DNA from: Rhodococcus sp. Z13
Lineage (GTDB): Bacteria; Actinomycetota; Actinomycetes; Mycobacteriales; Mycobacteriaceae
Length of the DNA: 64,000 nt
Assembly: GCF_025837095.1 (NCBI RefSeq)
Contig: NZ_CP107551.1
Coordinates: 2,214,352-2,278,351 of the forward strand
Direction: 5' to 3'
The notes under the pieces are model-generated. The model was not told where the DNA came from, did no database searches, and was given only the letters and a program-made list of their open reading frames with translations. Numbering within the stretch: the stretch's first letter is position 1; each line of letters opens with the position of its first letter. Position numbers and translations under genes: made by a program. Below, one piece after another: positions 19,127 to 26,877 of the stretch.

Positions 19127-19804
19127 GTGAGCCGCCGCGCGATCGCCGGCACCGTCTTCGGTGCGTGCGCGATCGGCGCGGCGGCTCATCTGCTTTCGCA
19201 GCTCGTCGCGCCGGAGTCGGCGTTCACCGATGTCTCGCAGTGGTTCCTCATGCCGCTGCTCGCGGCCGGGCTCGCGCTCGTCACCTCGGCCCCGCGCAGC
19301 CGTCTCGTCGTGTCCACCCTTGTGGCACTGGGATTTTCGTGGCTCGGTGACACCGCGCCGGATCTCGTCGACGGCGACGCGTCGTTCCTGGTGCTCGTCG
19401 GTTTCTTCCTGTGCGCCCAGCTCACCTACATCGTGGGGTTCCTGCCCTACCGGACCGCGAGCGTGCTGCGCACCCGGCCGTGGGTGGTCGGTCTCTACGC
19501 CGTCGCGGTCGTCGCGATACTCGCCGTGTGCGTGTCCGCCGCAGGGATTCTCGTCGTCCCGATGGCCGTCTACGCGTCGTGCCTGGCGGCGATGGCGATC
19601 CTGGCGACCGGGGTGTCGCGGCCGGCGGCGATCGGCGCGGTGCTGTTCGTGGTCTCCGACGCGCTCATCGCCGTCCGTGCCTTCGTCGACGCGGAGTTGC
19701 CCGCCATGGGGTTCTGGATCATGGCCACCTACATCGCGGCGCAGGCGCTGATCGTGCGCGGCGTGCTCACCGCACACGATCAGCGGGTGTTACAGACCCA
19801 GTAG
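19127..19804 (+). CDS. YhhN/lysoplasmalogenase-family membrane protein
   Basis: This 225-residue protein has about eight hydrophobic helices and the family's charged motifs between them: SWLGDTAPDL near residue 68 and FVVSDALIA near residue 175, whose aspartates form the presumed active site of TMEM86B/YhhN lysoplasmalogenases. The GTG start is four bases after the meaB stop, so it is probably cotranscribed with the mutase genes, although no metabolic link is known. Its 3' end overlaps the convergent lipoprotein gene by 15 bases. Substrate in bacteria is unproven. Confidence 0.8.
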   Translation: MSRRAIAGTVFGACAIGAAAHLLSQLVAPESAFTDVSQWFLMPLLAAGLALVTSAPRSRLVVSTLVALGFSWLGDTAPDLVDGDASFLVLVGFFLCAQLTYIVGFLPYRTASVLRTRPWVVGLYAVAVVAILAVCVSAAGILVVPMAVYASCLAAMAILATGVSRPAAIGAVLFVVSDALIAVRAFVDAELPAMGFWIMATYIAAQALIVRGVLTAHDQRVLQTQ

Positions 19805-20407
19805 CTGCTTGGCGACGGCCACGGCCGCGGGGGCATCCAGTGCCGGCGCATCGCCCCATCGGCCCCCGGAGATCGACACCTCCACGTCGGGGAGCTGCAC
19901 GTGGGTCACCGAGACGGCGGCCACCGCGATGGCCTCGTCCAGGGTGTAGGCGATACCGCCCGCCTCCTCGACGGCAGCATCGGGGACCGGCACGAGACCG
20001 CCCGCCCCGAGGTCGCTCGCAGTGGGGACGGGACCCGCCGACGGGGCCACCGTGATCTCCACCGAGCGGATCTCGGCGAGGCTCGTGGCGCTGTCCGGGG
20101 TCTCCCACAGGCACAGGACGCCGAACTCGTCGACGGTGCTCGACGGCTGCAGCGCCAGGCCCTCGATGTAGGGGGCGACGGCGGGTGCGACGTCGTCGCA
20201 GCTCGAGAAGCGGTCCAGGATGTCGCCGTCGAGCGCGCTCGCACCGGCGAGGGCGTCGGCGTCGACGGTCGCCGTGGAACCGGAAGTCGAGGAATCGGAT
20301 ACCGGCGACTCGGAAACCGAATCGTCGGAGGAACAGGCCCCGAGGAGCAGAGCGCCGGCGAGGGCCGCGGATGCGACCGCGTAACGGGTGTGGTTCACAC
20401 GGGGCAT
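19790..20407 (-). CDS. DUF3558-type lipoprotein (first of a tandem pair)
   Basis: This 205-residue lipoprotein has a type II signal peptide with lipobox LLGAC (lipidated Cys near residue 23). The start MPRVNHTRY at 20407 was chosen because longer frames put an unlikely leader in front of the signal peptide. After a Ser/Thr-rich linker the mature part has the DUF3558 pattern: SSCDDV, PYIEGL, a second cysteine in VLCLWETP and a C-terminal AKQLLGL. DUF3558 proteins are actinobacterial cell-envelope lipoproteins of unknown role. The next gene upstream is a paralogue with the same motifs and C-terminus. Confidence 0.75.
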   Translation of the reverse strand: MPRVNHTRYAVASAALAGALLLGACSSDDSVSESPVSDSSTSGSTATVDADALAGASALDGDILDRFSSCDDVAPAVAPYIEGLALQPSSTVDEFGVLCLWETPDSATSLAEIRSVEITVAPSAGPVPTASDLGAGGLVPVPDAAVEEAGGIAYTLDEAIAVAAVSVTHVQLPDVEVSISGGRWGDAPALDAPAAVAVAKQLLGL

Positions 20408-20477
20408 CGTAACTACCAGTACGAGCGGTATGTGATCTTGGTTCTCCGTTGCGGTCGCGGTCCGCGACGCCGCTCTC

Positions 20478-21056
20478 CTACAGGCCCAGAAGAACCTTGG
20501 CGACCTCGACGCCACCGGCCGGATCGAGCACGACCTGCGTGTCGCGGCCGCTCACCGTGATCGACACCGACGCCCGCGGCAACTCCACTCCGGTCGCGGT
20601 GACGGCGGTGCCGGGCATGTTGATCGGCATGCTGTGGGCGAAGCCGCCCACCGCCTCGATCCGCTCGTCCGGGATCGTGACGAGCCCGGTCTTCGCGGCG
20701 GTCGCGGAGGTCACCGTCTCGGGATCGATGGAGATCTCCACCGAGCGGATCCCCGCGGGCGACTCGCCCTCGGGGGCCTTCCACTCGCAGAACACCTTCG
20801 TCCGGTCGACGGTGCTGCCGGGGGACAGGACCAGGCCGTCGACGTAGGGGGCGATCGTGCCGCCGACGGCCTCGCAGGTGGGGAAACGCTCGGCGACGCT
20901 CACGAGATACGGGGACTCGGACGCGGTCGTGCTCGCGGATCCGACGTCGGCGGCATTGCGGATCTCGGGGTTCTCGTCGCCGGACGAACAACCGGCCAGG
21001 ATCAGGCCGCCGGCGAGAACGACGGGGACACTCTTGTGTATCGGGTTTTGTCGCAC
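20478..21056 (-). CDS. DUF3558-type lipoprotein (second of a tandem pair)
   Basis: This 192-residue lipoprotein has lipobox ILAGC followed by a Ser/Gly-rich linker. The mature domain matches its downstream neighbour motif for motif: PTCEAVGG, PYVDGLVLSPGSTVD, VFCEWKAPE, GIRSVEISI and C-terminal AKVLLGL. The two cysteines probably form a disulfide. The pair is separated by 70 bp and looks like a tandem duplication. The function is not known. Confidence 0.75.
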   Translation of the reverse strand: MRQNPIHKSVPVVLAGGLILAGCSSGDENPEIRNAADVGSASTTASESPYLVSVAERFPTCEAVGGTIAPYVDGLVLSPGSTVDRTKVFCEWKAPEGESPAGIRSVEISIDPETVTSATAAKTGLVTIPDERIEAVGGFAHSMPINMPGTAVTATGVELPRASVSITVSGRDTQVVLDPAGGVEVAKVLLGL

Positions 21057-21149: not shown

Positions 21150-22109
21150 TCAGTTCGCGGGCGTGCCGGAGGGTGTTTCCGCGGGCTCGCGCAGCACCGC
21201 GGGGGTGGGTTCGGCGAGCGGTTCGAGCGAGCCGTCCTTCTCCGCGCGGGTGAGCCGCGACCGCTTCCACGACACGGTCAGCAACGCCACCCACGCCGTG
21301 AGGATCAGGGCGTAGACCGCGGCGAGCCCACCGCCGGTCAGACCGGCCGCACCGGCGAGCTTGTGGGCGTTGGTCAGCACGATGACACCACCGACGCCCG
21401 TGCCCAGCAGCGTGGCGGGCACCCGGCTGACGAGCCAGGCCGCGACCGGCGCCGCGATCGCCCCGCCGAGGGCGAGGCCCGCGACGATGACGAGATTGCC
21501 GAGCGACTCGTGCCCGAGCCCGAACACGAAGCCCGCACTCGCGGCCAGGGCGACGAGGAACTCCGAGGCGCTCACCGACCCGATGACGGTGCGCGGGGCG
21601 GTCTTACCGCGGGAGAGCAGGGTGCTCGTGGTGATCGGGCCCCAGCCCCCGCCGCCGCTCGCGTCGATGAACCCACCGAAGAAGCCCAGCGGCGACAGGA
21701 ACTTCGCGGTGTGCGGGGAGGTGCGGGCGTGCGCGACCGCGGGCGGGCGCACCGAGAACCGCAGCGCCACGTACACCCCGATGGCCAGCAGGATCCCGGC
21801 CGTCACCGGTTCGGCGGCCTTCGTCGACAGCCCGGACAGCACCGTCGCACCGAGGAACGCGCCGATCGCACCCGGCACGCCCAGCCGCAGCACGACCTTC
21901 CAGTCGATGTTGCGGAACCGCCAGTGCGACGCGCCGGACACGAGAGTCGTGCCGACCTCGGCGAGGTGCACCGCGGCGCTCGCGTGCGCCGGACCCACCC
22001 CGCTGAACAGCAGCAGGGTGGTGGCGGTGACCCCGAAGGCCATGCCGAGGGCGCCGTCGACGAGCTGGGCGCCGACGCCGACGAGGGTGAAGACGAGCAG
22101 ATTCAACAT
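21150..22109 (-). CDS. TauE/SafE-family sulfite/sulfonate-type exporter
   Basis: This 319-residue permease has eight to nine hydrophobic helices. The two inverted TauE repeats are visible as GVGAQLVDGALGMAFGVTATTLLL at the N-terminus and GFFGGFIDASGGGGWGPITTSTLL in the middle. Family members move sulfite, sulfoacetate, sulfolactate or other anions. The start codon at 22109 has a weak CGGAG site. A cysteine-rich leader ORF and compact hairpin lie just upstream, which supports a role in sulfur metabolism controlled by cysteine supply. Confidence 0.85.
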   Translation of the reverse strand: MLNLLVFTLVGVGAQLVDGALGMAFGVTATTLLLFSGVGPAHASAAVHLAEVGTTLVSGASHWRFRNIDWKVVLRLGVPGAIGAFLGATVLSGLSTKAAEPVTAGILLAIGVYVALRFSVRPPAVAHARTSPHTAKFLSPLGFFGGFIDASGGGGWGPITTSTLLSRGKTAPRTVIGSVSASEFLVALAASAGFVFGLGHESLGNLVIVAGLALGGAIAAPVAAWLVSRVPATLLGTGVGGVIVLTNAHKLAGAAGLTGGGLAAVYALILTAWVALLTVSWKRSRLTRAEKDGSLEPLAEPTPAVLREPAETPSGTPAN

Positions 22110-22150
22110 GCAGTGCTCCGAAAGCTGGAAGTACCCGGGGAAGACGGACG

Positions 22151-22164
22151 AGCGCCGAAGCGCT
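22151..22164 (-). promoter_or_regulatory. UUCG-loop hairpin between leader peptide and exporter
   Basis: On the transcribed strand AGCGC-UUCG-GCGCU forms a short, very stable tetraloop hairpin whose first base is the last base of the leader peptide's stop codon. No U-run follows, so it is not a classical terminator. It could pause ribosomes or polymerase, or belong to an attenuation switch. Confidence 0.5.
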
Positions 22165-22280
22165 CAGCAACACTCCGGGGTACGACACAGGCAGTCGAAG
22201 CAGGCGCCGCGACGGGTGGGCCAGAAGGACATCAGCGCGAGGCGAGAGGCCGGAGCCGTCTCGAAGCCCGTCGCGTGCAT
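22164..22280 (-). CDS. Cysteine-rich leader peptide upstream of tauE-type gene
   Basis: This 38-residue ORF starts at 22280 behind an AAGGA site and ends RGACFDCLCRTPECC-stop: five cysteines in the last 11 codons, two of them right before the stop. The arrangement matches actinobacterial cysteine-responsive upstream ORFs, in which ribosome stalling or release at Cys codons controls a downstream sulfur gene. The exporter start is 54 bp beyond the stop. A shorter in-frame start at 22232 lacks a ribosome-binding site. Too short for family assignment; the call rests on position, RBS and composition. Confidence 0.65.
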   Translation of the reverse strand: MHATGFETAPASRLALMSFWPTRRGACFDCLCRTPECC

Positions 22281-22384
22281 GTCGTCGTCCTTGCTGTCGG
22301 TCGCGGTGGCGAATAAGAATCCGGTCGAGCATAACCCTGGTGCGGGCGCAGGGCACCTCAGGGGTGGACTCGCCCAGGGGGGGA

Positions 22385-23620
22385 TCAGGTCAGGCGCCGC
22401 ACCCCGATCTCGAAGCCCGCCGCGCGCAACCGGTCGGTGAGCACGTCCCCGAACGCGACCGCCGGGGTGAGCACCCCACCCCCGGCGTGCAATTCCGCGC
22501 CGCCGACCGCCAGCGACAGCGCCGACTCGGCAAGCATCACCGCGGTCGCCTTGTAACCCGGATCGCCCTTCGCCGCGAACCGCGCGGTGTAGCGCGCCCC
22601 GGATTCGGTCGTCGTGTACAGATCGGCGATGAAGAAGCCGTTCTCCCGGACCTTCTCGGACGGGCCCTCGCCGGGCTTCGGCAGCAGCCGGTCCAGCACG
22701 AACCGGGTGGGCGGGAACATCAGCCCGGCCGCGAGCGCAGCGGTACCGGCACCGACCAGACCGGCGAAGAGCGGCGACAGCGGCGACGACCCGACCCCGA
22801 CGACCTCGCGGTAGCGGAACCGCCGCCCGTACGCCCAGTCGCGCAGCGCGTTGCTGCGGCGCACGATCCGGGTGTTGTAGGTGGCCATGACGAACGGCGC
22901 GGTGCGGCCCTTCAGTTCGGGGGAGATCGCCTTGCCGTCGAGCATCACCAGATCGCTCTGGCGGCCGAGATCGGGTTCCTTCGACGGATCCGGCGACAGC
23001 GAATAGGGCCGGGCGGCGAGCCTGCGTGCGTCCGCGTCCTTGCGGACCACGTCGAGCTGCTGGCGCAGCGAGTCGATCGTGCCGCCGCTGACGCCGCCGC
23101 GGAAGGCACTGAGTACGAAGGTGGTGTCGAGGAGCGGCCCGGTGCCGTCGGCCGCCGCGGCCCGGTACAGGGCGTGGACCCCCAGATCGGAGGGGATCGA
23201 GTCGAACCCGCACGAGTGGACGATGCGGGCGCCGGTGCGGCGCGCGGTCTCGTCGAACCGGTCGATGCTCTCCCGGTGGAAGAGCACCTCACCGGTGAGG
23301 TCGACGTAGTCGGTGCCGGCCTCGGCGCAGGCCTGCACCAGCGGCATGCCGTAGCGGGCGTAGGGGCCGACGGTGGAGATCACCACGCGGGTGGACTCCG
23401 CCAGCGCGGTGAGGGAGGCGGGGTCGTCGGCGTCCGCCTCGGCGATCCGCCAGTCGACGCCGAGTTCGGCGGCGAGCTTCTCGAGTTTGCTGCGGGTGCG
23501 GCCCGCGAGCCCGACGGCCACACCGGCCGGGAGGTGCTCGGCGAGATAGGCGGCGGTGAGGCGGCCGACGAATCCGGTCGCGCCGTAGACGACGATGTCG
23601 AGATCCCGGGAGGCAGTCAT
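22385..23620 (-). CDS. Saccharopine-dehydrogenase-like / trans-acting enoyl reductase family protein
   Basis: This 411-residue protein starts with a Rossmann NAD(P)-binding motif (VVYGATGFVGRLTAAYLAE) and continues with LAGRTRSKLEKLAAELG and STVGPYARYGMPLVQACAEAGTDYVDLTGE, the signature of this family in mycobacteria and rhodococci. A hydrophobic stretch near residue 290 (AAGLMFPPTRFVLDRLLP) suggests membrane or lipid association. One mycobacterial member is the trans-acting enoyl reductase of phthiocerol synthesis, and most are uncharacterised. No polyketide genes are adjacent, so the substrate is open. Confidence 0.8.
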   Translation of the reverse strand: MTASRDLDIVVYGATGFVGRLTAAYLAEHLPAGVAVGLAGRTRSKLEKLAAELGVDWRIAEADADDPASLTALAESTRVVISTVGPYARYGMPLVQACAEAGTDYVDLTGEVLFHRESIDRFDETARRTGARIVHSCGFDSIPSDLGVHALYRAAAADGTGPLLDTTFVLSAFRGGVSGGTIDSLRQQLDVVRKDADARRLAARPYSLSPDPSKEPDLGRQSDLVMLDGKAISPELKGRTAPFVMATYNTRIVRRSNALRDWAYGRRFRYREVVGVGSSPLSPLFAGLVGAGTAALAAGLMFPPTRFVLDRLLPKPGEGPSEKVRENGFFIADLYTTTESGARYTARFAAKGDPGYKATAVMLAESALSLAVGGAELHAGGGVLTPAVAFGDVLTDRLRAAGFEIGVRRLT

Positions 23621-26430: not shown

Positions 26431-26516
26431 TGTCCGAGGGGGGACTTGAACCCCCACGTCCGTTAATAGGACACTAGCACCTCAAGCTAGCGCGTCTGCC
26501 ATTCCGCCACTCGGAC
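26431..26516 (-). tRNA. tRNA-Leu (anticodon GAG), copy A
   Basis: It folds as a class II tRNA: acceptor stem GTCCGAG/CTCGGAC, D arm, anticodon stem CTAGC/GCTAG with loop TTGAGGT (anticodon GAG), a long variable arm (TGTCC...GGACG) and T arm GGGGG-TTCAAGT-CCCCC. The discriminator base is A and CCA is not encoded. It is identical to the copy 361 bp upstream. Confidence 0.95.
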
Positions 26517-26791: not shown

Positions 26792-26877
26792 TGTCCGAGG
26801 GGGGACTTGAACCCCCACGTCCGTTAATAGGACACTAGCACCTCAAGCTAGCGCGTCTGCCATTCCGCCACTCGGAC
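26792..26877 (-). tRNA. tRNA-Leu (anticodon GAG), copy B
   Basis: It has the same sequence and fold as copy A, with GAG in the anticodon loop, a long variable arm and discriminator A. The upstream flank repeats the GC-rich segment and TAC-rich element seen before copy A. Each copy therefore seems to be its own promoter-tRNA-terminator unit. Confidence 0.95.

Follow-up and report, generated by a model that had tools for sequence, protein, structure and literature searches.

A short open reading frame lies ahead of a TauE-type gene in Rhodococcus sp. Z13, and the locus raises the question of whether this frame encodes a translated leader peptide, what its cysteine codons may sense and what kind of gene it may control. 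The window analyzed is a stretch of 64,000 nt (contig NZ_CP107551.1, positions 2,214,352–2,278,351) in a 4.53 Mb single-contig genome. Table 1 lists the features of the locus.

Table 1. Features of the leader locus, numbered from the first nucleotide of the window
Feature	Position	Strand	Basis
Upstream open reading frame (uORF), leader peptide of 38 aa (38 codons)	22164..22280	minus	ORF translation; motif LxxFWPxRRxxxFDxxC
AAGGA, Shine-Dalgarno of uORF	22288..22292	minus	sequence; 7 nt 5′ of ATG
TATGCT, possible -10 element of leader promoter	22328..22333	minus	read by eye
Conserved core FWPTRRGACFDCLC, codons 19–32	22185..22226	minus	176 distinct relatives
Invariant Cys codon TGT (C32), proposed stall codon	22185..22187	minus	TGT 176/176; 50/50 representatives <80% identity
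Hairpin TGAGCGC-TTCG-GCGCTCG	22149..22166	minus	begins in uORF stop codon
Spacer uORF-tauE, 54 nt	22110..22163	minus	first 40 nt C-rich, G-poor across family
GGAG, Shine-Dalgarno of tauE	22116..22119	minus	sequence
TauE/SafE-family permease, probable CysZ-type sulfur oxyanion uptake protein	21150..22109	minus	PF01925

The translated sequence of the uORF is MHATGFETAPASRLALMSFWPTRRGACFDCLCRTPECC; it starts with ATG at 22280 and ends with TGA at 22166–22164 on the minus strand. An earlier sequence-only reading had described a uORF with a ribosome-binding site, two Cys codons at its end and a UUCG hairpin that starts at its stop codon, all ahead of a TauE-type gene. Each of these features is present: AAGGA is 7 nt before the ATG, the final two sense codons are TGT TGC (Cys-Cys), the hairpin is at 22166–22149, and the downstream gene matches PF01925 (E-value = 2.2e-36, 126 bits, cut-off 32.6). 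This gene is the only PF01925 match in the genome and its closest named relatives are from Rhodococcus. The sequence TATGCTCGA upstream of the uORF, a candidate -10 region, recurs by eye in several Rhodococcus relatives; a sigma-70-like promoter scan of positions 21900–22460 gave no site and did not pick up TATGCT. Elsewhere in the window, two adjoining genes of a DUF3558-like lipoprotein type are found downstream of tauE on the minus strand (20478–21056 and 19790–20515; E-values 7e-4 and 6e-3, under the Pfam cut-off), and two tRNA-Leu(GAG) genes of equal score are found 275 nt apart, also on the minus strand (26431–26516 and 26792–26877).

TauE relatives were collected at 99 loci, 19 from 18 genomes of the genus and 80 from a wider contig search, the two sets overlapping. 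The motif LxxFWPxRRxxxFDxxC is found upstream of TauE at 64 of the 67 loci from Rhodococcus, Mycobacterium/Mycolicibacterium and near kin (L001–L066 and L090), and is missing at L048, L058 and L065. It has the form ..ALMPFWPTRRGACFDCLCC.. in Rhodococcus and ..ALEPFWPSRRLMAFDEWC(C/R).. in mycobacteria, and the uORF stop codon at motif-bearing loci is 53–74 nt ahead of the TauE match. The motif was not found at the other 32 TauE loci (Corynebacterium, Pseudonocardiaceae, Sphingomonadales and others) with patterns that would miss divergent motifs. Over the 53 distinct core DNAs of the 64 loci pN/pS is 0.375 in the uORF frame; the remaining sense frames give 1.49 and 2.25, and the antisense frames 0.99, 0.57 and 1.67. 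The uORF is thus under selection as a peptide and in this frame only, which argues that it is translated. A translated leader with a key Cys codon was what the sequence-only reading had supposed, and selection on the leader peptide appears well supported by these comparisons. The locus L058 (Mycolicibacterium) has no motif, and about 100 to 59 nt before TauE a short in-frame end VLDRWCCPRL is kept, possibly as a decayed copy; a second TauE-family gene comes directly after the first at this locus.

The uORF had also been termed a poly-cysteine one, a description that does not stand. Among 176 distinct sequences, merged and de-duplicated from all sets, a single Cys is invariant, i.e. C32 inside FWPxRRxxxFDxxC. 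The W, R and C of the motif are invariant and the F, R/Q, F and D are nearly so. The terminal Cys-Cys of the window copy is dispensable, as relatives end with ..FDEWCRARI or ..FDCECCSWMSF, and the poly-Cys attenuator as first stated is rejected on this conservation pattern. Polycysteine leaderless short-ORF attenuators that respond to cysteine, with ribosome pausing proposed, were reportedly described in mycobacteria by Canestrari et al. in 2020. They resemble the present family in having a short Cys-codon open reading frame before actinobacterial sulfur genes. Compared by description only, the FW family differs in its one invariant Cys in place of a run, its long non-Cys motif and its fixed UGU; and unlike the leaderless frames, the window copy has a Shine-Dalgarno sequence and, if the -10 element is right, an untranslated 5′ end. 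A plain cysteine attenuator, in which the Cys codons alone matter and the remaining peptide is conserved for other reasons, would be in keeping with those mycobacterial uORFs (said to be cysteine-responsive; Canestrari 2020) and with the second Cys that residue 33 provides in 78 of the 176 sequences. However, W20 and R23 are invariant over the same sequences in which only one Cys is, and synonymous sites vary, so that this explanation is an unlikely one.

The peptide has no match to a known protein family in NCBIfam or Pfam. If translation begins at the nearest start, some members would be no more than 22 residues long, e.g. MTAQLEPFWPGRRADAFDETCC (L166). Copper-sensing uORFs such as CruR/CutF have a sensor part outside of the tunnel with a CXXC. 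The FW family is unlike these, with no conserved CXXC across the 176 leader sequences and some members of only about 22 aa. A small open reading frame with a different Cys-rich end (RGCRCST or close) and a stop codon 17 nt before the TauE relative is present at 9 of the 19 loci L080–L089 and L091–L099 (Sphingomonadales and others), namely L087, L091–L095 and L097–L099. It may be a Cys leader of separate origin ahead of this gene family.

The most striking property of the motif is at the nucleotide level. The C32 codon is TGT in 176 of the 176 distinct sequences, and this holds in 50/50 representatives with less than 80% identity and 16/16 with less than 70%. By set, TGT is found in 53/53 distinct TauE-linked cores, 76/76 distinct places elsewhere, 6/6 divergent members obtained with a looser pattern and 24/24 distinct sequences of a further, partly overlapping family set. 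TGT is the rarer of the two Cys codons: it accounts for 198 of 1565 Cys codons (12.7%) in neighbouring gene calls of the fetched loci, a background that may be too low because the gene caller favours high GC3, and for 20 of 150 in the gene calls of the window. Because the searches compared proteins, they exerted no selection on codon choice. At the invariant Arg codons the third base varies (entropy 1.6–1.8 bits), and that of C32 shows no variation. In addition, the base after the C32 codon is G in none of the 176 sequences, compared with 772 of 1569 Cys codons in gene calls.

The class RRHVDYLRVSSxLCR, which we take to be the annotated putative leader peptide of sulfur genes, served as a control. 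It too is a short actinobacterial peptide that ends near one Cys and is followed by a C-rich spacer; however, its motif is unrelated and its Cys codon is TGC in 20 of 21 distinct sequences, in contrast to TGT in 176/176 of the FW family. It was found in at least 53 of 60 genomes at a lax E-value ≤ 0.1, and 8 of 30 loci gave no match for its motif. The only TGT in this class is that of the query locus (L274/L168; G264:C1:3860941–3861021, minus strand; peptide RRRHIDYVRISSTLCRR), which lies near a carbonic anhydrase gene bearing an FW-type leader.

One tRNA-Cys gene, with anticodon GCA, is present among the 53 tRNA hits in the genome of the window. Thus no special isoacceptor reads UGU there, and a dedicated UGU-reading tRNA is ruled out for this genome. 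A tentative suggestion, which we hold to be rather doubtful, is that the switch reads one synonymous codon: it would need UGU and not UGC, would sense wobble decoding by tRNA-Cys, and one motif would coordinate its targets. As part of this suggestion, sulfur-dependent modification of tRNA-Cys and not only its charging would possibly be sensed at UGU. A known example of sulfur-dependent tRNA modification is ms2i6A37.

The leader RNA of the window has a more stable predicted fold than 197 of its 200 dinucleotide-shuffled versions (z = -2.41). A stop-codon hairpin with a stem of at least 5 pairs is found in 21/21 distinct Rhodococcus sequences, where it shows compensated changes, and in 17% of mononucleotide shuffles; it is found in 0/31 mycobacterial sequences. 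The hairpin is thus real but, in this sample, a genus-level feature. An intrinsic terminator at the stop codon was rejected, as there are no terminator-like sites in positions 21900–22460 and no hairpin in the 31 mycobacterial sequences. In the first 40 nt of the spacer C exceeds G in 160 of 172 family members, compared with 71 of 172 for an upstream control. Such a C-rich, G-poor spacer suits Rho but is not specific, because the RRHVDYLRVSSxLCR control class has a similar one. Hiding of the tauE Shine-Dalgarno sequence is not decided by predicted accessibility, which is slightly below that of shuffled sequences in Rhodococcus (0.31 versus 0.36) and above it in mycobacteria (0.42 versus 0.35).

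A different explanation for these constraints is an RNA element, where conservation would stem from the fold of the RNA or from a site on it, UGU included, to which a protein binds. The fixed third base of the Cys codon, the restricted base after it and the covarying Rhodococcus hairpin would fit. On the other hand, third bases of Arg, Pro and Ser/Thr/Gly codons vary (entropy 1.4–1.8 bits), there is no fixed base around UGU beyond the amino acid requirement, and a known RNA family is rejected, since only two tRNAs in the window match Rfam at gathering scores. No conserved RNA switch was found in the leader family, and an RNA element is quite improbable as the source of the conservation.

The family is widespread. 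A peptide profile of 36 positions matches at least 64 of 397 genomes of the order (E-value ≤ 0.01), the weakest matches including places without the motif. A core profile matches at least 58 of 394 genomes of the class and at least 13 of 396 of the phylum, and a broader core profile at least 36 of 150 genomes within one family, where a genome can have as many as five copies (all E-value ≤ 0.001). These searches scored 19, 22 or 60 candidates per genome, so that the counts are lower bounds. A reversed-core decoy matched 1 of 150 genomes at E-value ≤ 0.01; its comparison with the order-wide search is approximate, i.e. 20 positions on 150 genomes against 36 positions on 397. Of 97 loci, 18 failed the first motif pattern and were dropped there. 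Looser patterns recovered the motif in nine of these (L195, L196, L199, L200, L205, L212 and L234–L236), all with TGT, and the other nine (L192, L202, L215, L216, L219, L221, L223, L241 and L242) show no motif with any pattern. Two of the 29 loci of the family set (L254 and L259) also gave no match for the FW-type motif. Viral contigs yielded 28 pattern matches and no confirmed relative, and each of the two peptides compared with plasmids gave a single weak match (E-values 0.5 and 0.6).

The genes that follow the leader were classified at 127 distinct places by the nearest same-strand tblastn match (E-value ≤ 1e-6, within about 2.6 kb), with reference proteins drawn from the same loci. They are beta-carbonic anhydrase (28 places), cysteine dioxygenase (23), TauE (22), winged-helix Trans_reg_C (22), SsuA (9), SBP_bac_5 (6), LLM monooxygenase (4), methanethiol-oxidase-like (3), Cys/Met PLP enzyme (2), and DUF4395, SBP_bac_1, YceI and Rrf2 (one each); no class was assigned at 4 places. 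Several matches are far off and are weak evidence, e.g. two of the three methanethiol-oxidase-like genes (>1 kb), YceI (612 nt), Rrf2 (474 nt) and two SBP_bac_5 genes (about 480 nt). Pfam and NCBIfam name the representatives as SsuA_fam (189 bits, cut-off 163.5), NtaA/DmoA (553 bits, cut-off 279.7), CDO_I, Rhodanese with Trans_reg_C, Pro_CA, TauE, DUF4395 and Cys_Met_Meta_PP; the methanethiol-oxidase label is weak (E-value = 7.8e-5, 21 bits against a cut-off of 650). At 22 of the 23 cysteine dioxygenase places a rhodanese/winged-helix gene comes next. Plain sulfur genes (TauE, cysteine dioxygenase, SsuA, LLM and Cys/Met PLP) are headed at 60 of the 127 places. The leader had been tied to sulfur genes from family knowledge, and the census agrees: the family heads sulfur genes in many actinobacteria, and its sulfur link appears well supported. 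The carbonic anhydrase (28) and winged-helix (22) targets are not plainly sulfur genes. At one carbonic anhydrase locus (L169) cysN- and cysD-like frames adjoin, as read by eye.

The census also bears on a trans-acting role, in which the peptide would work as a small Cys protein, for example one that binds a metal, and not as a sensor in cis. The conservation of Cys, Arg and aromatic residues would fit such a protein. However, a recognised gene class follows on the same strand at 123 of the 127 places (only same-strand matches being counted), the 22 aa length of members such as L166, taken from the nearest start, speaks against it, and a codon constraint is meaningless for a free peptide. A trans-acting peptide is therefore very improbable.

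One group of leaders is from Streptomyces-like organisms of one genus with genomes of 6–11 Mb (L143, L145–L152, L154 and L156–L163). Here the motif is mostly FWPSRQHHDFDRVCC, and it heads an orphan winged-helix (Trans_reg_C) gene in 18/18 distinct places examined; in other families this domain is fused to rhodanese behind cysteine dioxygenase. A -10-like box (TATATT, TACATT or TTCAAT, by eye) is found 6–7 nt before the nearest uORF start at L145–L163 and at L224, L226 and L228 (family f32). This spacing suggests leaderless leaders at those loci, unlike the Shine-Dalgarno-led copy in the window.

The label of sulfite exporter for the downstream gene is doubtful. At the Corynebacterium locus L067 a TauE relative with 57% identity comes after genes for CysD, CysN and CbiX (profile matches), and a cysD-cysN-cbiX-tauE block is also visible by eye in the corynebacterial loci L070, L071, L073 and L077. 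This is the order of cysDNYZ in C. glutamicum, where deletion of cysZ abolishes growth on sulphate and sulphite and leaves growth on thiosulphate, sulphide and cysteine unaffected (PMC1266029). That phenotype implies uptake. Placement of the TauE relative in the corynebacterial cys block, together with the CysZ phenotype, favours uptake over export for the permease encoded by tauE of the window; it is probably of the CysZ type, by analogy with a gene order read in other corynebacteria. Unlike the C. glutamicum gene, the Rhodococcus tauE stands apart from cys genes and carries its own leader; the leader motif was not found before corynebacterial TauE genes with the patterns used.

The stall, signal and switch of the leader are what we infer from these observations. 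The reading we prefer, held with confidence evenly divided for and against, is that the uORF is a nascent-chain-assisted, cysteine-responsive attenuator with its stall at or beside one UGU codon. With members that would be as short as 22 residues from the nearest start, the conserved part would not yet have left the ribosome at the time of Cys decoding, and W20 and C32 are 12 residues apart, as W12 and P24 are in TnaC (PMC10941005); these two properties suggest that the nascent chain helps the ribosome to pause at the UGU step. The uORF would then act as a cis-acting sensor peptide. The nascent LxxFWPxRRxxxFD in the exit tunnel would slow the ribosome at UGU, or one step past it, and shortage of Cys-tRNA would turn the pause into a stall. 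The step would remain slow because UGU is read through wobble by the sole tRNA-Cys and is never followed by G. The stalled ribosome would shield the C-rich spacer from Rho, or keep the RNA from hiding the tauE Shine-Dalgarno sequence, and the sulfur-uptake gene would be expressed. With ample cysteine the ribosome would finish and release, and the gene would be attenuated. Induction by cysteine shortage would be the natural reading for CysZ and sulfonate genes. Cysteine dioxygenase, which consumes Cys and makes up 23 of the 127 targets, is ill suited to it.

The dioxygenase targets fit better with an arrest peptide that senses a ligand, as TnaC of E. coli does. Here the nascent chain would bind a small molecule with sulfur within the tunnel, such as cysteine, sulfite, sulfide or persulfide, an excess of which would induce the gene; arrest would occur while Cys-32 is attached to the tRNA in the P site, and a Cys, Arg, Pro or stop codon in the A site would be a poor partner. 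In 165 of the 176 sequences C32 is followed by Cys, Arg, Pro or the stop codon, peptide conservation over these sequences reaches far past one Cys, and the cysteine dioxygenase-rhodanese targets (23/127) suit induction by excess. TnaC is also a short leader, in which W12 is 12 residues before P24, an Asp is conserved and the stalled ribosome blocks Rho (PMC10941005). The FW family has the same Trp-to-stall spacing if C32 is the stall codon, as well as the Asp, and TnaC is a possible model. The likeness is drawn without sequence relation, however, and TnaC senses free Trp at a Pro-stop where the FW family ends at an invariant Cys codon. In addition, ligand sensing does not by itself explain the UGU requirement, and the CysZ, SsuA and LLM genes suit induction by shortage. 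This explanation is possible but rather doubtful.

Leader peptides linked to Cys are already known in actinobacteria (PMC1262725; Canestrari 2020). Seliverstov et al. 2005 presented candidate cys leader peptides in Mycobacterium, P. acnes and B. longum (PMC1262725). These resemble the present leaders as open reading frames before cys genes with no conserved terminator, for which the authors suggested Rho. They differ in their runs of Cys codons near the stop and in heading cys operons and cbs; the distinction is by description and the two sets may overlap. In Rhodobacterales, uORFC-8-2 is a uORF before cysS with conserved Cys codons as attenuator, and it differs in having two tandem Cys codons, an intrinsic terminator and UGC, not UGU, as the dominant codon, with some UGU (PMC8632094).

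A literature text search that left most subscription literature outside of its scope did not find the string PFWPSRR. The motif is likewise not described in the titles and abstract openings of the leader-peptide literature found, most subscription papers again being outside of the scope, nor mentioned in the portions examined of PMC8632094, PMC9094748, PMC13236596, PMC1262725 and PMC8079986; the eight S. lividans leader peptides shown in the last all lack it. As far as searched, novelty lies in the FWPxRRxxxFDxxC family itself, in its distribution across sulfur and neighbouring genes and in its invariant UGU.

A widespread leader family, for which the scans of Pfam, NCBIfam and Rfam gave no model, thus marks actinobacterial sulfur genes. 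As it also marks beta-carbonic anhydrase and winged-helix regulators, it can help to find further genes that belong to the sulfur network. For the neighbouring 'sulfite exporter' gene the likely role would shift to uptake. In a cell with a single tRNA-Cys, an invariant UGU is an unusual constraint at the codon level, and the fixed, rarer Cys codon hints at how sulfur shortage may be sensed. If the codon-reading suggestion is true, one motif would coordinate uptake permeases, sulfonate/organosulfur genes, cysteine dioxygenase and carbonic anhydrase across Actinomycetes.
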